Below, in pieces: positions 18,620 to 63,977 of a stretch of 64,000 nt of DNA. The translations under genes were made by a program, and so were the position numbers. Source of the stretch: a virus. The notes beneath the pieces were generated by a model. It worked only from the letters and a program-made list of their open reading frames with translations. It was not told where the DNA came from and did no database searches. The stretch covers positions 27,524 to 91,523 of the IMG/VR virus record IMGVR_UViG_3300027969_000072; one strand, given 5' to 3'. Position 1 is the first letter of the stretch, and every line of letters begins with the position of its first letter.

Positions 18620-18651
18620 AAAAAAAGACATCTTAAAGATGTCTTTTTTTT
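18620..18651. terminator. Bidirectional hairpin terminator
   Basis: AAAAAGACATCTT/AAGATGTCTTTTT stem between the convergent terL and clpS genes. Confidence 0.85.
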
Positions 18652-18934
18652 ATTCATTCACTTCCATGGTAGCAGAGAGTCCCGCTCCTCTTAGTTTATT
18701 TTTCATTTCTGAAATGGTTTCTAAATCACCATATTTAACATCACATTTTCCACTATTATGAATTATGTGAGCACACTGTGTAGCTTGTTCATATTCATGA
18801 TCACAAACTTTCATTAGACAACTAATAACGTGGTCAAATGAATTGTAATCATCATTATGAACTATTAGTTTATAAGGTTTAGATAAAATCTCTTGTACTT
18901 TAGACTGTGTTTTTTTCTTAGTAATAGTTGGCAT
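18650..18934 (-). CDS. clpS: ClpS-like adaptor protein
   Basis: The 94-residue protein matches ClpS throughout: a disordered basic N-terminus, the signature YKLIVHNDDYNSFDHV (N-end-rule pocket strand), the helix SCLMKVCDHEYEQA, then AHIIHNSGKCDVKYG and a C-terminal LRGAGLSATMEV. ClpS delivers substrates with destabilising N-termini to the ClpA or ClpC unfoldase. The window also encodes ClpP (31208) and a ClpC-like ATPase (61917). It follows the HAD gene by 1 base. Confidence 0.88.
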   Translation of the reverse strand: MPTITKKKTQSKVQEILSKPYKLIVHNDDYNSFDHVISCLMKVCDHEYEQATQCAHIIHNSGKCDVKYGDLETISEMKNKLRGAGLSATMEVNE

Positions 18935-18935
18935 T

Positions 18936-19448
18936 TTAATTGAATGTTTTTGTTGTTTTGTTTATTACATCTATTATAGTGATTTTACAATCAATAGTTT
19001 CCGTCCATTTTTCAAATTCAACTAGATGCTCAAATCTATCATCATACATGATGAATTCCTCTGGTTGCAATTCACTAATTAGTTTTTCAAATAATCTACT
19101 TTTAAAAGTAAATGTGTCTCCACCATTGTTTAAATATAGAGCATCGAATGATAAATTTAGTTTATGTAAAACTTTTTCCACTTCAGTTCTTAATTTTTCA
19201 ATACGACCTGTTGCACAAAAAACATAGTTATCAGGATCAGAGACTGCTTTTAAGTATTCTTGGTATACATAAGGGTTTATTTTTGTATCAAAAATATCTA
19301 AGTCTAAGGTTTCTGGTTTAGACCACCATCCTCTATGAGGCCAATCTGTACCAAATTTTTCTTTCCAGATAGGTTTACCTTCCTCTGGTTTCAAGGTATG
19401 ACAAAGAGTATCATCAAAGTCAAAACATATCAATTTTTTTATCTCCAT
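18936..19448 (-). CDS. HAD-family phosphatase, Swiss-Army-Knife RNA repair type 1
   Basis: The 170-residue protein has the HAD nucleophile motif FDFDDTL (D10, D12), then a GWWSKPETLD segment, motif II threonine in FCATGR and the motif IV acid pair in MYDDRFEH. The early DFDDTL plus GWW combination resembles the HAD domain found in Swiss-Army-Knife RNA repair proteins (formerly DUF2410), which are proposed to remove phosphates from broken RNA ends. It is transcribed from a TATATTTG promoter with ClpS. Confidence 0.7.
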   Translation of the reverse strand: MEIKKLICFDFDDTLCHTLKPEEGKPIWKEKFGTDWPHRGWWSKPETLDLDIFDTKINPYVYQEYLKAVSDPDNYVFCATGRIEKLRTEVEKVLHKLNLSFDALYLNNGGDTFTFKSRLFEKLISELQPEEFIMYDDRFEHLVEFEKWTETIDCKITIIDVINKTTKTFN

Positions 19449-21383: not shown

Positions 21384-21414
21384 AGAAAAACCACTCATTG
21401 AGTGGTTTTTTTAT
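21384..21414. terminator. Bidirectional hairpin terminator
   Basis: AAACCACTCA/TGAGTGGTTT stem between convergent genes. Confidence 0.85.
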
Positions 21415-21752: not shown

Positions 21753-22380
21753 TATTATAACTATCTAAAAATCTTTTTTCCTCTGGTGTAAGATTTTCAA
21801 TACCAACAGATGTAATTCTATCTAATATATCATCTATATTAAACTTTATCTCATTCTGTCTTTTTATCTTTTCAATATCTGACATTTCTTCTTTTGGAAA
21901 AGCACCAAACATACCCTTCTTCATATCTTCTACTTTTATTTTGAATTTACTCTCAAATTCATCACGAGAGAAGACCATCCCCATTACATTTACAACATCA
22001 TTTATCTCATGCTTATAGAAAACATCTAGACCCACAATGATTTCATCAACTAATAATTTATCTATTGAATCTGATGTATAGATACACTTATCTCCCTTAA
22101 ATATAGCAATATCACGTCTATCCATAAGATAAACAACATTTACCATACCTATATTATTTAGTTCGGTCATAATAGTAACAGTACCATTGATACGACTAAC
22201 AAAACTTGTTTTATTTGTATAAAGATTATCCAATACACTTTGAAAAATATCCGTAATTTCCTTTCGATACTTACCATCGTTATATCCCTCAATAATCTTT
22301 CTTAAAAGATTATTAAATAAATATCCTAAACAAAAGAACCCTATAATAATTGCGATAATTGAACCGTTACTGTATACCAT
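21745..22380 (-). CDS. Membrane-anchored unknown protein
   Basis: The 211-residue protein has one N-terminal membrane segment (about residues 8-25) and a soluble mixed alpha/beta region. Its C-terminal motif DILDRITSVGIENLTPEEKRF resembles the short ILDKIxxxGxxxLTxxEKxFL segment found at the end of Bacteroidota rhomboid proteins, and recurs in the small gene at 58646. No catalytic motif is seen. The start overlaps the end of the RlaP gene by 14 bases. Confidence 0.5.
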   Translation of the reverse strand: MVYSNGSIIAIIIGFFCLGYLFNNLLRKIIEGYNDGKYRKEITDIFQSVLDNLYTNKTSFVSRINGTVTIMTELNNIGMVNVVYLMDRRDIAIFKGDKCIYTSDSIDKLLVDEIIVGLDVFYKHEINDVVNVMGMVFSRDEFESKFKIKVEDMKKGMFGAFPKEEMSDIEKIKRQNEIKFNIDDILDRITSVGIENLTPEEKRFLDSYNNE

Positions 22381-23632
22381 AAACTGATTTTCTAATTTTT
22401 ACTAATAAACTATTTATAAAATTTTCATCTACCTTTTCTGGTAAATTTGATTCTTTAAACAAAGTATCCACTTCTTTAATCTCACTTTCAACATGATCAA
22501 TCAAAGTTTGTAAATCTATTTCACCTCTTCTAATTGAAAGAAGTTCTTGTGCATTATCTCTTTTAACAAGTATACCTTTACCTTCTGCAATCTCTCGTGC
22601 CATATCCATCAATCTACGACAGTGCATCATATTCTTACCATCAATTTGTTGACCGTGAGACTTAACATCTACCCATCTTTGAAGATTTCTTTTTGATAAC
22701 CATTCTTCATACTCTCTAAAGTCTTTACAGTGTTCAGAATATCCATCTTTATTATAAGTAATAGTACAAAATGGTTCTTGTCCCTTTGGAATTGATGATA
22801 ATCTCAATTGATTTGAGACACCTAAGTTCTTTTCTGCCTCTTTTTGAAAAACTAACTCAAGTCTATCAATTTGATCATCAGTCATATTAGTAAGTTTACT
22901 TCTATCAATAGTTGCACCTGCTTTAACCAATCCCTTATAACCTAGACCCAATGCAAGACCAGAGTCTTTACGTTGTTGAATCATAGTATCACTTAACTCT
23001 CTAGATTCTTTTCCAGAAAACATCATATCAGATTCAGTATCATAGAATAAGGTATATACGTCTTTTGCATATGGAACATTTACTGCACCAATAAATCTTT
23101 CATCATATTTCCCATCATTCCATTTTTTCCATGGAATAGCTTTTGTTCCTTGTATAACATAACAAAAATCAAGTAAGTCTTTACGAGTTACTTTATCTTT
23201 TTCCCAGTTTTGTTTTTTATTTTGACCTTTTGCTTTACCAATTTGAGCTCTCGCATAACCACCAAAAGAGTTGGCACAGATTTTAGTAATAAACTGATCT
23301 CTATTCTCTAATATTAAATCAAAAATAGGATCTTTATAGATAATACAGTCTTCTGGTGTATTAAGTAATTCTAAAACTGTTGGGTTATTACTAGCTAATA
23401 GTTCTAAAAATCTACGTAACTCATAGATTACAGTATCATTAGTATCATCATTTACTTGTTGCTTGTATTTACTACCAAGAATATCATCCAATGACTGGAT
23501 AAATACACCTGCGTAGTCAGTATCGGAAGTTTCTATATTAGTTCCGTATGCATGTGACCCCCTAACAACCAAGAAGATTGGTTTAGATCCAGGAGATCTT
23601 TCATTTATAAGTTGGCTTAGTTGTTCTTTCAT
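22367..23632 (-). CDS. RlaP-type nucleotidyltransferase (DNA polymerase beta superfamily)
   Basis: The 421-residue protein has the nucleotidyltransferase signature RGSHAYGT followed by TSDTDYAGVF (G25-S26, D37, D39), an ELRRFLELLASNNPTVLELL helix typical of the family, and an all-helical C-terminus. This layout is that of RlaP, the RNA-ligase-associated polymerase-beta-like family proposed to act in RNA repair. No RNA ligase gene is visible in the window. Two HAD repair-type phosphatases are. A TATATTTG promoter box lies 17 bases upstream. Confidence 0.75.
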   Translation of the reverse strand: MKEQLSQLINERSPGSKPIFLVVRGSHAYGTNIETSDTDYAGVFIQSLDDILGSKYKQQVNDDTNDTVIYELRRFLELLASNNPTVLELLNTPEDCIIYKDPIFDLILENRDQFITKICANSFGGYARAQIGKAKGQNKKQNWEKDKVTRKDLLDFCYVIQGTKAIPWKKWNDGKYDERFIGAVNVPYAKDVYTLFYDTESDMMFSGKESRELSDTMIQQRKDSGLALGLGYKGLVKAGATIDRSKLTNMTDDQIDRLELVFQKEAEKNLGVSNQLRLSSIPKGQEPFCTITYNKDGYSEHCKDFREYEEWLSKRNLQRWVDVKSHGQQIDGKNMMHCRRLMDMAREIAEGKGILVKRDNAQELLSIRRGEIDLQTLIDHVESEIKEVDTLFKESNLPEKVDENFINSLLVKIRKSVYGIQ

Positions 23633-25087: not shown

Positions 25088-25762
25088 ATGAAAAAAGTAA
25101 AGAAATATAGTGATTTTTTAATACTAGAAAGATACGATAAGAATATAAAAGCACAACTTATTAAAATGGGTGTGACTGATAAAGAAGAATTGAAAAAACA
25201 AATCTCTTTATCTAAACAAGGACACTTAGCTACTTACTTACATTCTAAAGGTGAGAATTTTACATTTGGTATTCTTAGAGCAATATTTAAAGACGCAGTT
25301 GATGCAAAAAAGAAAACAACACTAAAGAAGAATATATTTAGTATTCTACCAATTGCAATTCCTTTATCATTAGCACCTTTCTTTCCAGTACTTGCGGTAG
25401 TAGGTACAATATTTGGTTCCTCTCGTTTAGTACACAGAGTATTTGATACATTATTTGAATATTTAGAACCACAATCTAAATATACCGATTTCTTAAAGAA
25501 AACTATTGATACTTATATGATGTTACCAGAAGGAGAAGTTCCGTTAAAAGATAGATTTTCAAGAGCATTTGTTGTATCTGATAGATTGATCGAAGCACTT
25601 AAACCTGAAGTAGTAAATAGTTTCACATCATTTATTAGTGATAAAATGGAAAAGGAAGATGATGGTAAATTAGTACCAGATCATTATATAGAAAATGAGT
25701 TAAAAACTTATATTAATGATAATTTTGATGTAAATCCTGCAATACCTTTAAAGAAGAGTTAG
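25088..25762 (+). CDS. Tagged protein with internal hydrophobic hairpin
   Basis: The 224-residue protein begins MKKVKKYSDFLILERY, the shared tag with an I-L-E site at residues 12-14. A long hydrophobic region follows at about residues 85-115 (IFSILPIAIPLSLAPFFPVL), which could insert in membranes, then a helical domain. A virion-internal protein able to enter a membrane would suit DNA delivery, but this is inference. It overlaps the convergent gene by 4 bases. Confidence 0.5.
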   Translation: MKKVKKYSDFLILERYDKNIKAQLIKMGVTDKEELKKQISLSKQGHLATYLHSKGENFTFGILRAIFKDAVDAKKKTTLKKNIFSILPIAIPLSLAPFFPVLAVVGTIFGSSRLVHRVFDTLFEYLEPQSKYTDFLKKTIDTYMMLPEGEVPLKDRFSRAFVVSDRLIEALKPEVVNSFTSFISDKMEKEDDGKLVPDHYIENELKTYINDNFDVNPAIPLKKS

Positions 25763-26682: not shown

Positions 26683-27267
26683 ATGAAAAGATTACTATCG
26701 ATTTTCTTATTTATAACAACATTCACTAGTTATTCTCAAGTTGTTAGAGACAGTGTATTAGTTAAAACTGACATTTTTGAAGTATCATATTCAGAAAAAT
26801 TTGAACAACCATTAAGAGTTAAGTACCGTGTACTTTGTCAAGATGGTAAAGCATCAAGACAAGGTATGGACTTCTATACTGAAAAACTTTATAAGACATC
26901 TGATGCAAAGGATTATGAATCCAACGTATATGACAAAGGACATTGTGCACCGGCTGCAGATTTTAATTGTGATAAAGTAATGTTATTTAAAACATTCACT
27001 TATTTAAACTGTACATTACAAGATCAATACTTAAATAGAGGAACTTGGAGACTTTTAGAAGTATATGAAAGAGAACTAGCTAAAAAATATACAGTTGATG
27101 TTGAGATAAAACTTATATTTTCCAATAAATCAATTAAGCTACCAACTGGTGCAACAGTACCAGATGCTTTTCTTAAAACTATAAAATATAATGGTATAAC
27201 AGAAAAGTATTACTTTGTAAATGAGAGACCAAAATTTAGTAATTTTAAACTTTACTTAATAAAATAA
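26683..27267 (+). CDS. Secreted DNA/RNA non-specific endonuclease (EndA/NucA type)
   Basis: The 194-residue protein has a signal peptide (to about residue 18, TSYSQ) and a beta-beta-alpha-metal nuclease core. YDKGHCAPAADF carries the DRGH-type motif (D84, K85, G86, H87), and LNCTLQDQYLNRGTW contains the conserved asparagine (N118) that binds magnesium. K in place of R at the second position of the DRGH motif is the only deviation I see. The enzyme should act in the periplasm or outside the cell. It has its own AT-rich promoter region and terminator. Confidence 0.82.
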   Translation: MKRLLSIFLFITTFTSYSQVVRDSVLVKTDIFEVSYSEKFEQPLRVKYRVLCQDGKASRQGMDFYTEKLYKTSDAKDYESNVYDKGHCAPAADFNCDKVMLFKTFTYLNCTLQDQYLNRGTWRLLEVYERELAKKYTVDVEIKLIFSNKSIKLPTGATVPDAFLKTIKYNGITEKYYFVNERPKFSNFKLYLIK

Positions 27268-27297
27268 AAAAGAGACTCATTTGAGTCTCTTTTTTTA
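27264..27297. terminator. Bidirectional hairpin terminator
   Basis: AAAGAGACTCA/TGAGTCTCTTT stem between the convergent nuclease and nusA genes. Confidence 0.88.
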
Positions 27298-28527
27298 GTT
27301 AAATTCGATTTCTAAAATTTTAATAACTTCTCTTATTGTTTCTTCTTCAAGATCTGTTTGTTTTACAATATAATTAAAGTCTGCTTTCAATACACTCTTA
27401 GCAGTGTCAAATCCAACTTTCCTAAACTCATCAATAATCCAACCATCAATTTCATCAGAGAAATCTTCTAATAAAACGTCCTCATTGTGTTCAACATCAG
27501 AAAATACATTTATTTTATATCCACTTATTTTACTTGCTAGTTTAATGTTCATACCACCTTTACCAATTGCCAATGAAATATTTTCAGAAGGTATAATCAC
27601 ATTAGCTGCTTTCTTCTCTTCATTTAACTCAACAGTTGCTTTACTTTGACCAAGTGCTCTCATAACAAATAATGATTTATTTGTAGTGTAACTGATAACA
27701 TCAATGTTTTCATTATTAAGTTCTCTTACAATACTATGTATTCTACTACCTTTAACCCCAACACAAGTTCCAACTGGATCAATTCTATCATCATAAGACT
27801 CAACAGCAACTTTTGCTTTAGAACCAGGTTCTCTAACAACTGCTTTAACTGTAATTAAACCATCAAATACTTCAGGTATTTCAAGTTCAAATAACTTTTC
27901 TAAGAATTTGTTAGAAGTTCTTGATAAAGTCATAAAAAGTTTACCATTATCAATAGAAACACTTTGTAAAATCGCTCTAATTGAGTCACCTTTTCTATAA
28001 AAGTCACCAGGTACTTGCTCAGTTTTAGGTAAAACAAACTCATTACCTTCATCATCAATAACAATAGCTTCTTTTCTTAAAATTTGATATACTTCACAAG
28101 TGAAAATTTCACCTTCTCTATCTTTATATTTTTTATACAAAGATTCCTTACCTAAATCAATGATTTTAGATTTAAGTATTTGACGAATTGATGAAATTGC
28201 ACGTCTTCCAAAATCAGCGATTTTAACTTCATCAGAGTAATCCTCACCTATCTCAAAACCAGATTCGATTTTATTTACATCAGTAAATTTAATGTGAATA
28301 TTCTCATCATAATCATCATCATTATCATCAATAACCATTCTATTTCTCCATATTTCTAAATCTCCCTTATTTGGATTTACAATAATATCAAAGTTATCAG
28401 TAGATCCATATTTTTTTAAGATTATAGTTTGAAAAACTTCTTGCATTATTTTAATCATTGACTCTTTATCAATGTTTTTAACATCTTTTAACTCGGTAAA
28501 AGACTCTACTAGATTTATATTATCCAT
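27295..28527 (-). CDS. nusA: Transcription factor NusA
   Basis: At 410 residues this is a complete NusA of Bacteroidota type: the N-terminal RNA polymerase-binding domain (FDIIVNPNKGDLEIWRNR near 45-62), an S1 domain (about 130-200), KH1 with VGVKGSRIHSIVRELNNE, KH2 with AIGKGGMNIKLASKISG, and a C-terminal helix-hairpin region (SDEIDGWIIDEFRKVGFD). NusA modulates pausing, termination and antitermination. The organisation and segments match cellular NusA closely, indicating capture from a host. No other Nus factor is seen. Confidence 0.93.
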   Translation of the reverse strand: MDNINLVESFTELKDVKNIDKESMIKIMQEVFQTIILKKYGSTDNFDIIVNPNKGDLEIWRNRMVIDDNDDDYDENIHIKFTDVNKIESGFEIGEDYSDEVKIADFGRRAISSIRQILKSKIIDLGKESLYKKYKDREGEIFTCEVYQILRKEAIVIDDEGNEFVLPKTEQVPGDFYRKGDSIRAILQSVSIDNGKLFMTLSRTSNKFLEKLFELEIPEVFDGLITVKAVVREPGSKAKVAVESYDDRIDPVGTCVGVKGSRIHSIVRELNNENIDVISYTTNKSLFVMRALGQSKATVELNEEKKAANVIIPSENISLAIGKGGMNIKLASKISGYKINVFSDVEHNEDVLLEDFSDEIDGWIIDEFRKVGFDTAKSVLKADFNYIVKQTDLEEETIREVIKILEIEFN

Positions 28528-28574
28528 AGTATTTATATTATATTTTTATTTGTATTAAAATTATACAATTATGT

Positions 28575-28606
28575 TTAAAATAAAAAAGATGTAATTAAAC
28601 ATCTTC
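28575..28606 (-). terminator. Hairpin terminator after the lipoprotein gene
   Basis: On the minus strand AAGATGT/ACATCTT forms a stem followed by a T run. It overlaps the last codons of the 28595 gene. Confidence 0.7.
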
Positions 28607-29500
28607 TTCTTTTTTTTCTTTTTTCCTCTTCCACAATAGCCAAAACCATTGAAAAAGCGGGATAAAAATTACACCCATAAACCACTCCCAGTTTTTGAGT
28701 ATAAAGTCTTTTATACTGGAACCCAGATTAGACTTGACTTTTATCTTTCTCTCAAAGACGGTAATATCTTTATAATAATCATTACCATCCTCTTTTATTC
28801 TAATTTTTACATTAAGTTTTAAATTATTTTCACCACCTTGTAAAGGAATTACATTCCAACTCCATTCAGTATATCCCTCATCATCTATATTTTGAATTTC
28901 TGTTGATAATGTAGTTATCTCAAAATCCCTTTTACTTGATAATAAACTTGCTGACATTATTGGAGAAACTGTTATGGATTCAACTCTAACATCTTCTAAA
29001 TTATCTGATATAGGAATTTCTCTATCACCAACTAATAAAACTGTTCTATCATCCTTCTTACTTATTCTTACTTTTACTAAATAATCATCACCAACTTCCA
29101 TTTCACTAGGAACTGAGTAAGCAATTAAACCCTTAGGTCTAATTTCCTTTGTTTGAATTATCAGTGTCTCATTTTTTTTAACATTTTTACTCTTTACATC
29201 TTTATTATCAACAGTGGCTGGTTCCGTCTCTTTTGCAGATTTAGCAATTATAATACTATCTTTTGTTCCTGAATATTTTTCATTTTCTTCACTACCAGGA
29301 CAACCCATATTATCTCTACTACCTTTTATATCAGGACATTTATCATCTTTGTCAGGAACACCATCTTTATCATAATCAGGAAACCTCTCTATCTTATCCA
29401 CAAGAGGTGGTGGAGGTAGTGGAGTACTATCAGTTCTTGTATCCATTGTAGTTTTACAAGAAAATAATATAAATAAAAAAAGAAAGAATATATATCTCAT
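28595..29500 (-). CDS. Lipoprotein with TSP3-type calcium repeat and C-terminal membrane anchor (u-spanin-like topology)
   Basis: I prefer the ATG at 29500 (MRYIFFLFLFILFSC, 301 residues) over an upstream one at 29521, because the lipobox LFSC then sits at a normal distance. After the lipidated cysteine come a proline stretch, a DKDGVPDKDDKCP thrombospondin-type-3 repeat, a beta-rich ectodomain and a C-terminal transmembrane helix (VIFIPLFQWFWLLW) with a basic cytoplasmic tail. An outer-membrane lipid anchor plus an inner-membrane helix is the topology of a unimolecular spanin, although at 301 residues it is much larger than the T1 type. Confidence 0.65.
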   Translation of the reverse strand: MRYIFFLFLFILFSCKTTMDTRTDSTPLPPPPLVDKIERFPDYDKDGVPDKDDKCPDIKGSRDNMGCPGSEENEKYSGTKDSIIIAKSAKETEPATVDNKDVKSKNVKKNETLIIQTKEIRPKGLIAYSVPSEMEVGDDYLVKVRISKKDDRTVLLVGDREIPISDNLEDVRVESITVSPIMSASLLSSKRDFEITTLSTEIQNIDDEGYTEWSWNVIPLQGGENNLKLNVKIRIKEDGNDYYKDITVFERKIKVKSNLGSSIKDFILKNWEWFMGVIFIPLFQWFWLLWKRKKEKKEEDV

Positions 29501-29527
29501 AACATATATATTCTTTCTCAAATCTTC

Positions 29528-31207: not shown

Positions 31208-31945
31208 ATGGATTTTGGAAAAGATTTTAGAAAGTATGCTTTAAGTGAAGGAATTTCTTCTTTAAACTTAGATTACTTTGAAAAAGGTTTAGTAGAGAAT
31301 AGTATGACACCATATATTCTTGAAGAGAGAGAAATGAGAGTAACGCAGATGGATATTTTTAGTAGACTCATGCGAGATCGTATATTATGGGTTGCCGGTG
31401 TTGTAAATACACAAATGTCAACCGTTGTTCAAGCTCAATTGATGTATTTAGACTCTGTTGAGAAAAAAGACATCAAAATGCATATTGACTCACCAGGTGG
31501 ATCAGTTTTAGCTGGATTAGGTATGGTTGATGTTATGAGATATATCAACTCTGATGTTGAAACAATCAATACTGGTATGGCAGCATCTATGGGTTCTATC
31601 TTATTATCATCTGGAACTAAAGGTAAAAGAGCATCATTAAACTTCTCTAAAGTAATGATACATCAAGTTTCTTCTGGTGCATCAGGACACGTTGAAGATA
31701 ATCGTATTTCTCAAATGGAATCAGAAAAATACAACTATATCTTATTCAAGATGCTTGCAGAGAATAGTGGTAGAGATTTTGATTATGTACTTGAAAGTGC
31801 TAGAAGAGATAATTGGTTAAACTCACAAGAAGCTTTAGACTTTGGATTTATTGATGAAATCATCATAACTGATAAATCAACTCCGATTACTACTTACTTG
31901 GATGGTTTTGAAGATTACTACACTAAGGAAGTTTTAAGAAAATAA
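31208..31945 (+). CDS. clpP: ClpP serine protease
   Basis: The 245-residue protein is a full ClpP: the N-terminal MTPYILEEREMRV segment that lines the pore and docks ATPases, SPGGSVLAGLGMVD, the nucleophile motif GMAASMG (S127), MIHQVSSG with H152, and RDNWLNSQEALDFGFID with D201. The complete triad predicts an active peptidase. Its N-terminal features (MDFGKDFRKYA) resemble Bacteroidota ClpP. It needs an ATPase; a ClpC-like one with a VGF loop is encoded at 61917. Confidence 0.93.
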   Translation: MDFGKDFRKYALSEGISSLNLDYFEKGLVENSMTPYILEEREMRVTQMDIFSRLMRDRILWVAGVVNTQMSTVVQAQLMYLDSVEKKDIKMHIDSPGGSVLAGLGMVDVMRYINSDVETINTGMAASMGSILLSSGTKGKRASLNFSKVMIHQVSSGASGHVEDNRISQMESEKYNYILFKMLAENSGRDFDYVLESARRDNWLNSQEALDFGFIDEIIITDKSTPITTYLDGFEDYYTKEVLRK

Positions 31946-39897: not shown

Positions 39898-40731
39898 ATG
39901 AAAACAATATTTCTTGACATAGACGGCGTTCTAAACGTAGATTATGATGATAAAGACCAATTCGGTCATATCTTTAGGGAAGAGTATGTTCAAAATTTAA
40001 AAGAAATCATCGAGAAAACAGGTGCGAAAATCGTTATCTCTTCTACTTGGAAAGATAAAGGTATTGAAAGAATGTTAGACTTATGGAAAGAACGTCAACT
40101 ACCAGGTGAAATAATTGATGTAACACCAGATTGTGTAGATGTATGTGAATCAACTAATATAGTTTATTATGACCAAGTAAAAAGAGGTCATGAAATTAAA
40201 CTTTGGTTAGATAGACACCCAGAAGTAACTCAGTATGTTATATTTGATGATATACAAGATTTCCTAGATGAACAACAAGATTATTTTGTAAATTGTTCAA
40301 CGGGAGAACCAGTAAAACCCTGGAAATTAGGAATACCAGGACTAAAAGAAGAATGTAAAATTAAAGCAATAAATATATTAAACATGAAAGATAAAATAGA
40401 ATTTTCGGAATTTTTAGATGCTTCATCTAAATTAGAAATTAAAACAGGAAAGATTATATCAGTAACAGATGTACCTAAATCAGATAAACTTATTAAGTTA
40501 GAAGTTGATTTTGGCGAAGATACACCGAGAGTCGTTGTAACAAATATTAAACCTTCATTAGGTGAGAACTACGTTGATAAATTAGAAGGATACTCTTTCT
40601 TGTTCATAACAAATTTAAAACCTGTTAAAATGATGGGGATTGAGTCACACGCGATGATTATGCCAGGTGAATTAGAAAATGGTACACCAGCATTTGTTGT
40701 AAATACGAAACCAGGTACTAAAATACTATAA
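39898..40731 (+). CDS. HAD phosphatase fused to a tRNA-binding OB-fold domain
   Basis: The 277-residue protein is a fusion. Residues 1-160 are a HAD phosphatase of the Swiss-Army-Knife RNA repair type 2: FLDIDGVLN (D7, D9), VISSTWKDKG and YVIFDDIQDF. Residues 165-277 match the tRNA-binding OB fold of MetRS C-termini, EMAP-II and Trbp111: LEIKTGKIISV, a SDKLIKLEVDFG strand, ITNLKPVKMMGIESHAM. The product should bind tRNA and remove phosphate from it or from an attached group, possibly in repair of cleaved tRNA. Transcription is probably leaderless. Confidence 0.82.
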   Translation: MKTIFLDIDGVLNVDYDDKDQFGHIFREEYVQNLKEIIEKTGAKIVISSTWKDKGIERMLDLWKERQLPGEIIDVTPDCVDVCESTNIVYYDQVKRGHEIKLWLDRHPEVTQYVIFDDIQDFLDEQQDYFVNCSTGEPVKPWKLGIPGLKEECKIKAINILNMKDKIEFSEFLDASSKLEIKTGKIISVTDVPKSDKLIKLEVDFGEDTPRVVVTNIKPSLGENYVDKLEGYSFLFITNLKPVKMMGIESHAMIMPGELENGTPAFVVNTKPGTKIL

Positions 40732-61916: not shown

Positions 61917-63977
61917 TTATCTATTCTTTTTTAAAAACTCATTTAATGGTTTAAGATATTTGAAACTTTTACTTTCATTTACATCAAACTGTTTACCATT
62001 AAGTAAAATCTTATTAGATGAAGGATCATAATCAACCACAACATTTCCTTCTAATTCACCACCTAATATTTCATCAGAAAGTGGATCTTCTAAGTAATGT
62101 TGAATTGCTCTTTTTAATGGACGAGCACCCATTTTTTCATCATATCCTTTATCAATCAATAAATCTTTGAAAGCAGTTGTAATTTCTAATGATAAATTCA
62201 TAGCTTTTAGTTTAATCTCAACCTTTTTAATTTCAATATCAATAATTTTATAAATATTTTCTTTTGATAAAGAAGAGAATATAATAATTTCATCAATTCT
62301 ATTGATAAACTCAGGTTTTAATCTTTTACTTAACTCAGCTTTAATGATAGCTTTAGCATTCTCTTCTTTAACCATTGGTTTATCTGCACCAAATCCAACA
62401 GGTGTTACCATTTGATTAACCGCACTTGCACCAATGTTAGAAGTCATAACAATAATAGTATTTCTAAAATCTACTTTTCTTCCTTCACCATCTGTTAAGT
62501 GACCATCATCAAAAATCTGCAACATGATATCCATTACACTAGGATGTGCTTTCTCTAACTCATCAAATAATATAATACAATAAGGTTTTCTTCTTACTTT
62601 TTCAGTCAATTGACCACCTTCACCATATCCTACATACCCCGGAGGAGAACCAATCATTCTAGCAACATTATGTTTCTCAGCATATTCTGACATATCAACT
62701 CTAATCATTGCGTCTTCTGTACCAAATACATTCTTTGCTAATGTTTTTACAGTATGTGTTTTACCAGTACCAGTAGAACCTAAGAAAAGAAATACACCGG
62801 CTGGTCTATTAGGGTCTTTTAAACCGGCTCTGTTTCTTCTAATAGATTTTGCAATTTTTGTAACAGCTTCATCTTGTCCGATAATTTGCATTTTTAATTC
62901 ACCTTCTAATCCTAAAAGTCTTTTACCTTCATCACCAGTTACTTGTGTAGGTATACCAGTTTTTAAAGAAAGGATTCTTTCAACATCTTCTTTAGTAATT
63001 GTAATTCTCGGCATATCTTTTGCAGCTTTCTTAATTTCAATAGCTTTAACAACCAATTCATTTTCTCTCGGTCTTAAATCACCAGCTTCCTGATATTTTT
63101 GTGCTTTTAAAAATTCTGATTTTTGTAATCTTATCTCAGATAATTCTTTTTCTATTTCTATAAGTTCTGTAGGGGTATTTTTCTTAGCAGAGATTCTCAT
63201 TTTTGCACCAACCTCATCCATTAAATCAATTGCCTTATCTGGGAAGTATCTATCAGAAATAAATCTACCTGATAAGGTAACACAAGCTTCGATTGCATCA
63301 TCATTATATGAAACTTTATGAAAGTCTTCATATTTATTTTTAATTTTCATTAAAATTTCAATTGTATCTTCAATAGATGGCTCTTCAACATTTACTTTTT
63401 GAAATCTTCTTTCCAATGCACCATCTTTTTCAATAGAATTTCTAAATTCATTATTTGTAGTTGCACCAATTAAACGCATTTGACCTCTTGCTAGAGCTGG
63501 TTTGATTTGATTTGCCATATCAATCGGCACACCTTTATTTACCATTAAGTGAATTTCATCAATAAAAAGAATAATTTCTGGATTATCACTAAGTTCATCC
63601 ATTAAAGCTTTTACTTTAGCTTCTAAACCACCTTGTCCCGCCATGATAGTACCCATATCAACAGATACAATTCTCTTACCTTCTAATGCCTCAGGACAAT
63701 CTTCTGTTACCATAAGTCTTGCAATACCTTCGATAATTGCAGTTTTACCAACACCTGGCTCACCAATAATAACTGGATTGTTTTTATTTTTTCTAGATAG
63801 AATCCATATAACTTGGTCGATTTCTTTTTGTCTACCTATTACAGGATCAAGTTTATCATCTTCTGCAAGTTTAGTCATATCAACACCATATGCGTCTAAG
63901 AATGGAGTTTTCTTTTTAGTCTTTGGTTGTTCACCTTCTTCTCCAGTAAATAACTCATAAAGCTTTAATTTCTTCAT
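61917..63977 (-). CDS. ClpC-like AAA+ unfoldase with tag in place of the N-domain
   Basis: The 686-residue protein has two AAA+ modules: D1 with GEPGVGKT (72-79) and ILFIDE (136-141), D2 with GSTGTGKT (400-407) and IILFDE (468-473). A short ClpC-type middle coiled coil with a UVR-like FLKAQKYQEAGDLR segment lies at 275-310. A VGF tripeptide at 527-529 occupies the position of the ClpP-docking loop. The usual N-terminal adaptor-binding domain is missing; instead it begins MKKLKLYELFTGEEGE, like the packaging-type tag. It probably partners the phage ClpP. Confidence 0.9.
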   Translation of the reverse strand: MKKLKLYELFTGEEGEQPKTKKKTPFLDAYGVDMTKLAEDDKLDPVIGRQKEIDQVIWILSRKNKNNPVIIGEPGVGKTAIIEGIARLMVTEDCPEALEGKRIVSVDMGTIMAGQGGLEAKVKALMDELSDNPEIILFIDEIHLMVNKGVPIDMANQIKPALARGQMRLIGATTNNEFRNSIEKDGALERRFQKVNVEEPSIEDTIEILMKIKNKYEDFHKVSYNDDAIEACVTLSGRFISDRYFPDKAIDLMDEVGAKMRISAKKNTPTELIEIEKELSEIRLQKSEFLKAQKYQEAGDLRPRENELVVKAIEIKKAAKDMPRITITKEDVERILSLKTGIPTQVTGDEGKRLLGLEGELKMQIIGQDEAVTKIAKSIRRNRAGLKDPNRPAGVFLFLGSTGTGKTHTVKTLAKNVFGTEDAMIRVDMSEYAEKHNVARMIGSPPGYVGYGEGGQLTEKVRRKPYCIILFDELEKAHPSVMDIMLQIFDDGHLTDGEGRKVDFRNTIIVMTSNIGASAVNQMVTPVGFGADKPMVKEENAKAIIKAELSKRLKPEFINRIDEIIIFSSLSKENIYKIIDIEIKKVEIKLKAMNLSLEITTAFKDLLIDKGYDEKMGARPLKRAIQHYLEDPLSDEILGGELEGNVVVDYDPSSNKILLNGKQFDVNESKSFKYLKPLNEFLKKNR

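Follow-up and report, generated by a model that had tools for sequence, protein, structure and literature searches.

An open reading frame on the minus strand of a phage genome (27295..28527, from an ATG start to and including the stop codon) encodes a complete, 410-residue NusA of the Bacteroidota type. In bacteria, NusA is positioned where RNA leaves RNA polymerase, and it modulates how the enzyme pauses and stops. With a probability of roughly 70%, we read the phage gene as coding for a working NusA, captured from a Bacteroidota bacterium, that would tune pausing and hairpin-dependent termination by the host polymerase. The window analysed here comprises 64 kb of a 91.5-kb IMG/VR record that is classed as linear, a class that often denotes a fragment.

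Profile, sequence and structure comparisons identify the protein. Residues 6–344 match the NusA family TIGR01953 of NCBIfam at 333 bits, above the curated equivalog-domain cut-off of 253.4 bits, and Pfam reports NusA_N (E 6e-24) and KH_5 (E 3e-22) along with weaker KH2-type NusA matches. T. maritima NusA is the top PDB sequence match (E 3e-61). An AlphaFold model built with 38 sequences (mean pLDDT 85.7, pTM 0.64) has NusA chains as its first PDB structure matches (E 2e-36); whole-chain TM-scores against NusA structures are low, at about 0.55–0.6, which probably reflects flexible domain placement, and S1–KH1–KH2 of the model alone fits M. tuberculosis NusA at 2.3–2.4 Å over 218 columns. Because the profile, PDB sequence and model structure matches all point to NusA, we consider the protein complete, as the preliminary description had proposed in listing an NTD, S1, two KH domains and a C-terminal region.

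The domains follow in the order of bacterial NusA, all encoded on the minus strand: an RNA-polymerase-binding NTD (residues 1–106, 28210..28527, by Pfam NusA_N), a linker helix with S1 (residues 107–204, 27916..28209), KH1 (residues 205–294, 27646..27915, by Pfam KH_5), KH2 (residues 295–345, 27493..27645, by Pfam, with its GKGG loop intact) and a C-terminal helical domain (residues 346–410, 27298..27492, by alignment with cellular NusA). S1 receives no Pfam call in the window protein, but both the TIGR01953 and the phmmer alignment span it, and the model shows its β-strands. The likeness to Bacteroidota-type members of TIGR01953 extends to overall length, to GxxG loops intact in both KH domains and to the C-terminal helical domain. 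In E. coli, the AR2 domain contacts the α-CTD. Neither the phage protein nor the aligned cellular Bacteroidota NusA proteins have AR2, and instead of the proteobacterial AR1–AR2 layout the phage protein stops after one short C-terminal domain; the C-terminal region described earlier is thus present, in its Bacteroidota form and without AR2.

The DNA around the gene is that of a phage. The window contains a terminase large subunit, a tail sheath, a T4-like topoisomerase II subunit and a ClpP/prohead-protease-like gene, and over the stretch surrounding the topoisomerase gene its DNA shares 79% identity with LR745206, a phage of 635 kb. Eleven IMG/VR relatives carry nusA in the same neighbourhood, sharing genes for an M50 peptidase, ClpP, topoisomerase and an RlaP-like protein around it, with NusA proteins that are 85–97% identical in eight relatives, about 72% in two and 63% in one (L116). 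Cellular nusA genes lie in a rimP–nusA–infB setting, and neither rimP nor infB stands beside nusA in the window or its relatives. Misassembly of host DNA into a viral contig does occur among sequences of this kind, as three 'phage' records (MT835665, OQ572408 and OR846587) carry rimP–nusA–infB and are host chromosome. Against such an origin here, for which we see a negligible chance, terminase, sheath and topoisomerase share the record with nusA, gene order is identical in many independent contigs that lack rimP and infB, and the nearest cellular protein is just about 60% identical. Cross-contig synteny and the distance to cellular NusA rule out contamination, in agreement with the earlier assignment of the region to a phage. 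The three mislabelled records, which derive from Enterococcus, Pseudomonas and a faecal scaffold, would mislead surveys of phage NusA.

Several other features of the window were recorded alongside. ClpP (31208–31945, plus strand), a ClpS adaptor (18650–18934, minus strand, Pfam E 5e-19) and a two-AAA Clp ATPase (61917–63977, minus strand) possibly form a complete ClpAPS-like phage protease; alternatively, ClpP could serve as a protease in head maturation. An RlaP-like nucleotidyltransferase (22367–23632) and two RNA-repair-type HAD domains (18936–19448 and 39898–40731), one of them fused to a tRNA-binding domain, are a possible tRNA repair set alongside a phage tRNA-Met (37419–37497). Many proteins share an N-terminal leader, for example MKHLKRFKTFINES, that resembles a T4-type capsid-targeting sequence; it occurs at window positions 25088, 32405, 33910, 43729, 269 and 9464 and many times in record L002, and a loose pattern counts it in 6 of 75 window ORFs, 9 of 55 ORFs of L002 and 0 of 24 bacterial controls.

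The closest cellular relatives of the phage NusA proteins are Bacteroidota sequences, at 53–60% identity. Further viral copies are present in LR756504, a phage of 636 kb whose copy recurs unchanged in IMG/VR contig 3300012582_000005, and in two groups comprising L021 and L023–L025, each in a gene neighbourhood unlike that of the window. LR756504 is likewise a Bacteroidota-associated giant phage that encodes full-length NusA and no recognisable RNA polymerase, but its NusA is 52% identical, lies in an unrelated neighbourhood and shares the genome with NusG and several sigma-like genes. In a tree, phage NusA falls inside Bacteroidota at three places, with long branches in the three non-window lineages. 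The tree needs three changes, but an AU test does not reject a single phage clade (P = 0.22) and the branches are long, so either one capture or several may lie behind these genes. The related phage LR745206 has no NusA, and phages of this type can therefore do without the gene. The huge-phage study assigns all its genomes above 634 kb to Bacteroidetes hosts and the Mahaphage clade (PMC7162821), and from their lengths we infer that LR756504 and LR745206 belong to this group. The phage carrying nusA in the window is probably a giant phage that infects Bacteroidota.

Rates of substitution indicate that nusA is kept under purifying selection, with dN/dS of 0.04–0.15 among near relatives and 0.28 against L020. 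We counted near-invariant positions, defined as those at least 95% conserved among 80 cellular sequences, and the window protein retains 132 of 153 (linker and S1, 22/26; KH1, 51/55; KH2, 14/21; C-terminal domain, 21/23; NTD, 24/28), where cellular sequences in a leave-one-out control retain 98–100% on average. The preliminary description held that the segments contacting RNA polymerase are retained, which is borne out for the NTD and does not extend to AR2, as in the aligned cellular relatives. Within the NTD, F32 and F46 are invariant (17/17 phage and 79/80 cellular sequences) and align with E. coli L31 and V45, two residues whose NMR signals respond to RNA polymerase (PMC4642336); K38 is retained in 17 of 17 phage sequences and R108 in 16 of 17. 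At the position of E. coli L27, where cells have L, I or V, the window clade has M28, and it has Q in place of the adjacent E29 (80/80 cells). In KH1, A254 (80/80 cells) is replaced by T or I in 15 of the 17 phage sequences, a difference from cellular Bacteroidota NusA that is not by itself loss of function because an Enterococcus NusA also has T at this position. The NTD of NusA binds the β flap-tip helix while S1–KH1–KH2 guide RNA (PMC8940904), and judging from its residues the phage protein retains what both activities require. PMC4499122 also mentions a link between E. coli NusA and DNA repair, so the phage protein could serve outside transcription as a scaffold, for instance in repair or RNA chaperoning; we regard such a role as very improbable, since the polymerase-binding NTD is conserved as well as the remainder.

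KH2 is the most diverged domain relative to cellular Bacteroidota NusA, with changes at 7 of 21 near-invariant positions versus 14 of 132 elsewhere (Fisher P = 0.011, a post hoc comparison and a lead only), and L002 (12/21) and L023 (13/21) likewise retain less of KH2 than of any other domain; RNA binding could thus be altered or weakened. This bears on a plainer account in which the phage adds supply only: its NusA would top up a factor that runs short during transcription of a huge genome once host synthesis has stopped, with an activity identical to that of the host factor. The retention of most near-invariant positions and the purifying selection on the gene fit this account, which we entertain as a real if tentative possibility, but the greater divergence of KH2 hints at changed RNA handling.

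Termination itself is well represented in this phage. A bidirectional intrinsic terminator (27266..27295, −16.6 kcal/mol) between nusA and a convergent nuclease gene (26683–27267) is conserved in the window clade; L116 retains its stem despite changed sequence. Another terminator of the phage lies at 21384–21412. On the other side, a hairpin with a T-run (28583..28608, minus strand) that ends the upstream gene (28595–29521) is conserved in 11 aligned phages, and the conserved AT-rich stretch that follows it (GTATAATTT...AATACAAATAAAAATA, 28528..28582, minus strand) would be the promoter-like region of nusA. The gene thus looks like a single-gene transcription unit between two terminators, unlike the rimP–nusA–infB arrangement of cellular Bacteroidota. 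Perfect stems of at least 9 bp occur at 21 of 43 transcription-unit ends, compared with 0.07 in shuffles, and at no site inside genes; intrinsic-terminator-like sites in three 20-kb stretches number 14, 16 and 10 versus 4.1, 4.5 and 4.3 in shuffles. Because both counts exceed shuffles, hairpin-dependent termination is likely real in this phage. A strong hairpin had been proposed for nearly every unit; many intrinsic terminators are indeed present, at about half of the unit ends.

Upstream of nusA, neither an ATATATA nor a TCTTTG motif was found, and TATAAATA at −10 was rejected as its promoter, being no more frequent upstream of genes than in shuffles and missing from some relatives. A sigma-70 consensus scan of three 20-kb stretches showed no excess over shuffles. 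Elsewhere, ATATATA occurs in 23 of 41 upstream regions (100 bases before first-in-unit genes; 5.6 expected from dinucleotide shuffles, 0/500 as high), often within TTTAATATATA at −11 or about −30, sheath and terminase included, and is a candidate phage late promoter. TCTTTG, which resembles the Bacteroidota −7 box TAnnTTTG, is present in 6 of 41 such regions (0.9 expected).

We searched for partners with which a phage NusA might act. RNA polymerase β/β′ families (Rpb2_6 and Rpb1_2) had no match in the window record, its relatives, LR756504 or LR745206; control families matched in 14 of 14 genomes of this search, which highly divergent phage polymerases could escape. With no match in any record, a phage-encoded polymerase was rejected as the partner of NusA, and because none was found the phage NusA should act on host RNA polymerase as its natural partner. 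A NusG homologue (TIGR00922, cut-off 135.7 bits) is present in LR756504 (1480–2040, 145 bits) and, below the cut-off, in LR745206 (1300–1836, 111 bits, about 7 kb from the topoisomerase genes), and both phages have sigma-like genes; because they carry NusG and sigma-like genes, these two giant phages appear to adjust several steps of the host polymerase.

Such gene sets raise the idea that phage NusA displaces host NusA and, with phage NusG or another protein, produces read-through or a preference for phage RNA. Phage λ N converts NusA to an antiterminator, which makes NusA a known hinge for takeover of this kind (PMC4499122), and LR756504 has NusA, NusG and sigma factors together. However, of the parts of a λ N-type complex, NusG was found in the two related giant phages and no NusB homologue was found in the searched phage records. 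Moreover, terminators remain numerous in the phage and flank nusA on both sides, which favours the use of termination, and we consider antitermination unlikely. In a further and unlikely reading, giant phages of Bacteroidota would assemble an elongation complex of their own on host RNA polymerase from their NusA, NusG and sigma factors, with an altered KH2 that prefers phage RNA; if so, phage and host transcripts would be paused and terminated by different rules within one cell.

Our preferred reading remains a captured, working NusA. NusA shifts the polymerase to a swivelled, pause-prone state (PMC8940904). A giant phage would have captured nusA from a Bacteroidota bacterium, and purifying selection would have kept the gene. 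During infection the phage NTD would most likely dock on the β flap-tip of the host enzyme while S1–KH1–KH2 would hold the emerging RNA, in competition with or in addition to host NusA, with which it presumably exchanges. The expected outcome is tuned pausing and hairpin-dependent termination, above all on phage transcripts.

To our knowledge, phages are noted for encoding small proteins that target host NusA and not for carrying NusA. The phage proteins λ N, λ Q and Xp10 p7 change termination by host RNA polymerase together with NusA (PMC4499122, PMC7171158, PMC6624301), which makes them the nearest comparison; all three are small and unrelated and operate alongside the host's own NusA, whereas here the phage supplies NusA itself. 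The window protein matched no PHROG family, its model had at most partial S1-domain-like matches in a viral structure library, and among the records opened from a set of 50,697 phage records LR756504 was the sole NusA match in a phage context. Our literature search found nothing on phage-encoded NusA; the main text of the Al-Shayeb huge-phage paper leaves Nus factors unmentioned, and its supplementary tables may hold an earlier annotation. A phage carrying NusA thus appears to be rare and undescribed in the libraries searched: the protein itself is an ordinary NusA, and the carrier is what is unusual. If the protein works, the phage would alter the elongation phase of host RNA polymerase through factor supply, and its NusA would offer a natural variant for separating the surfaces that set termination.
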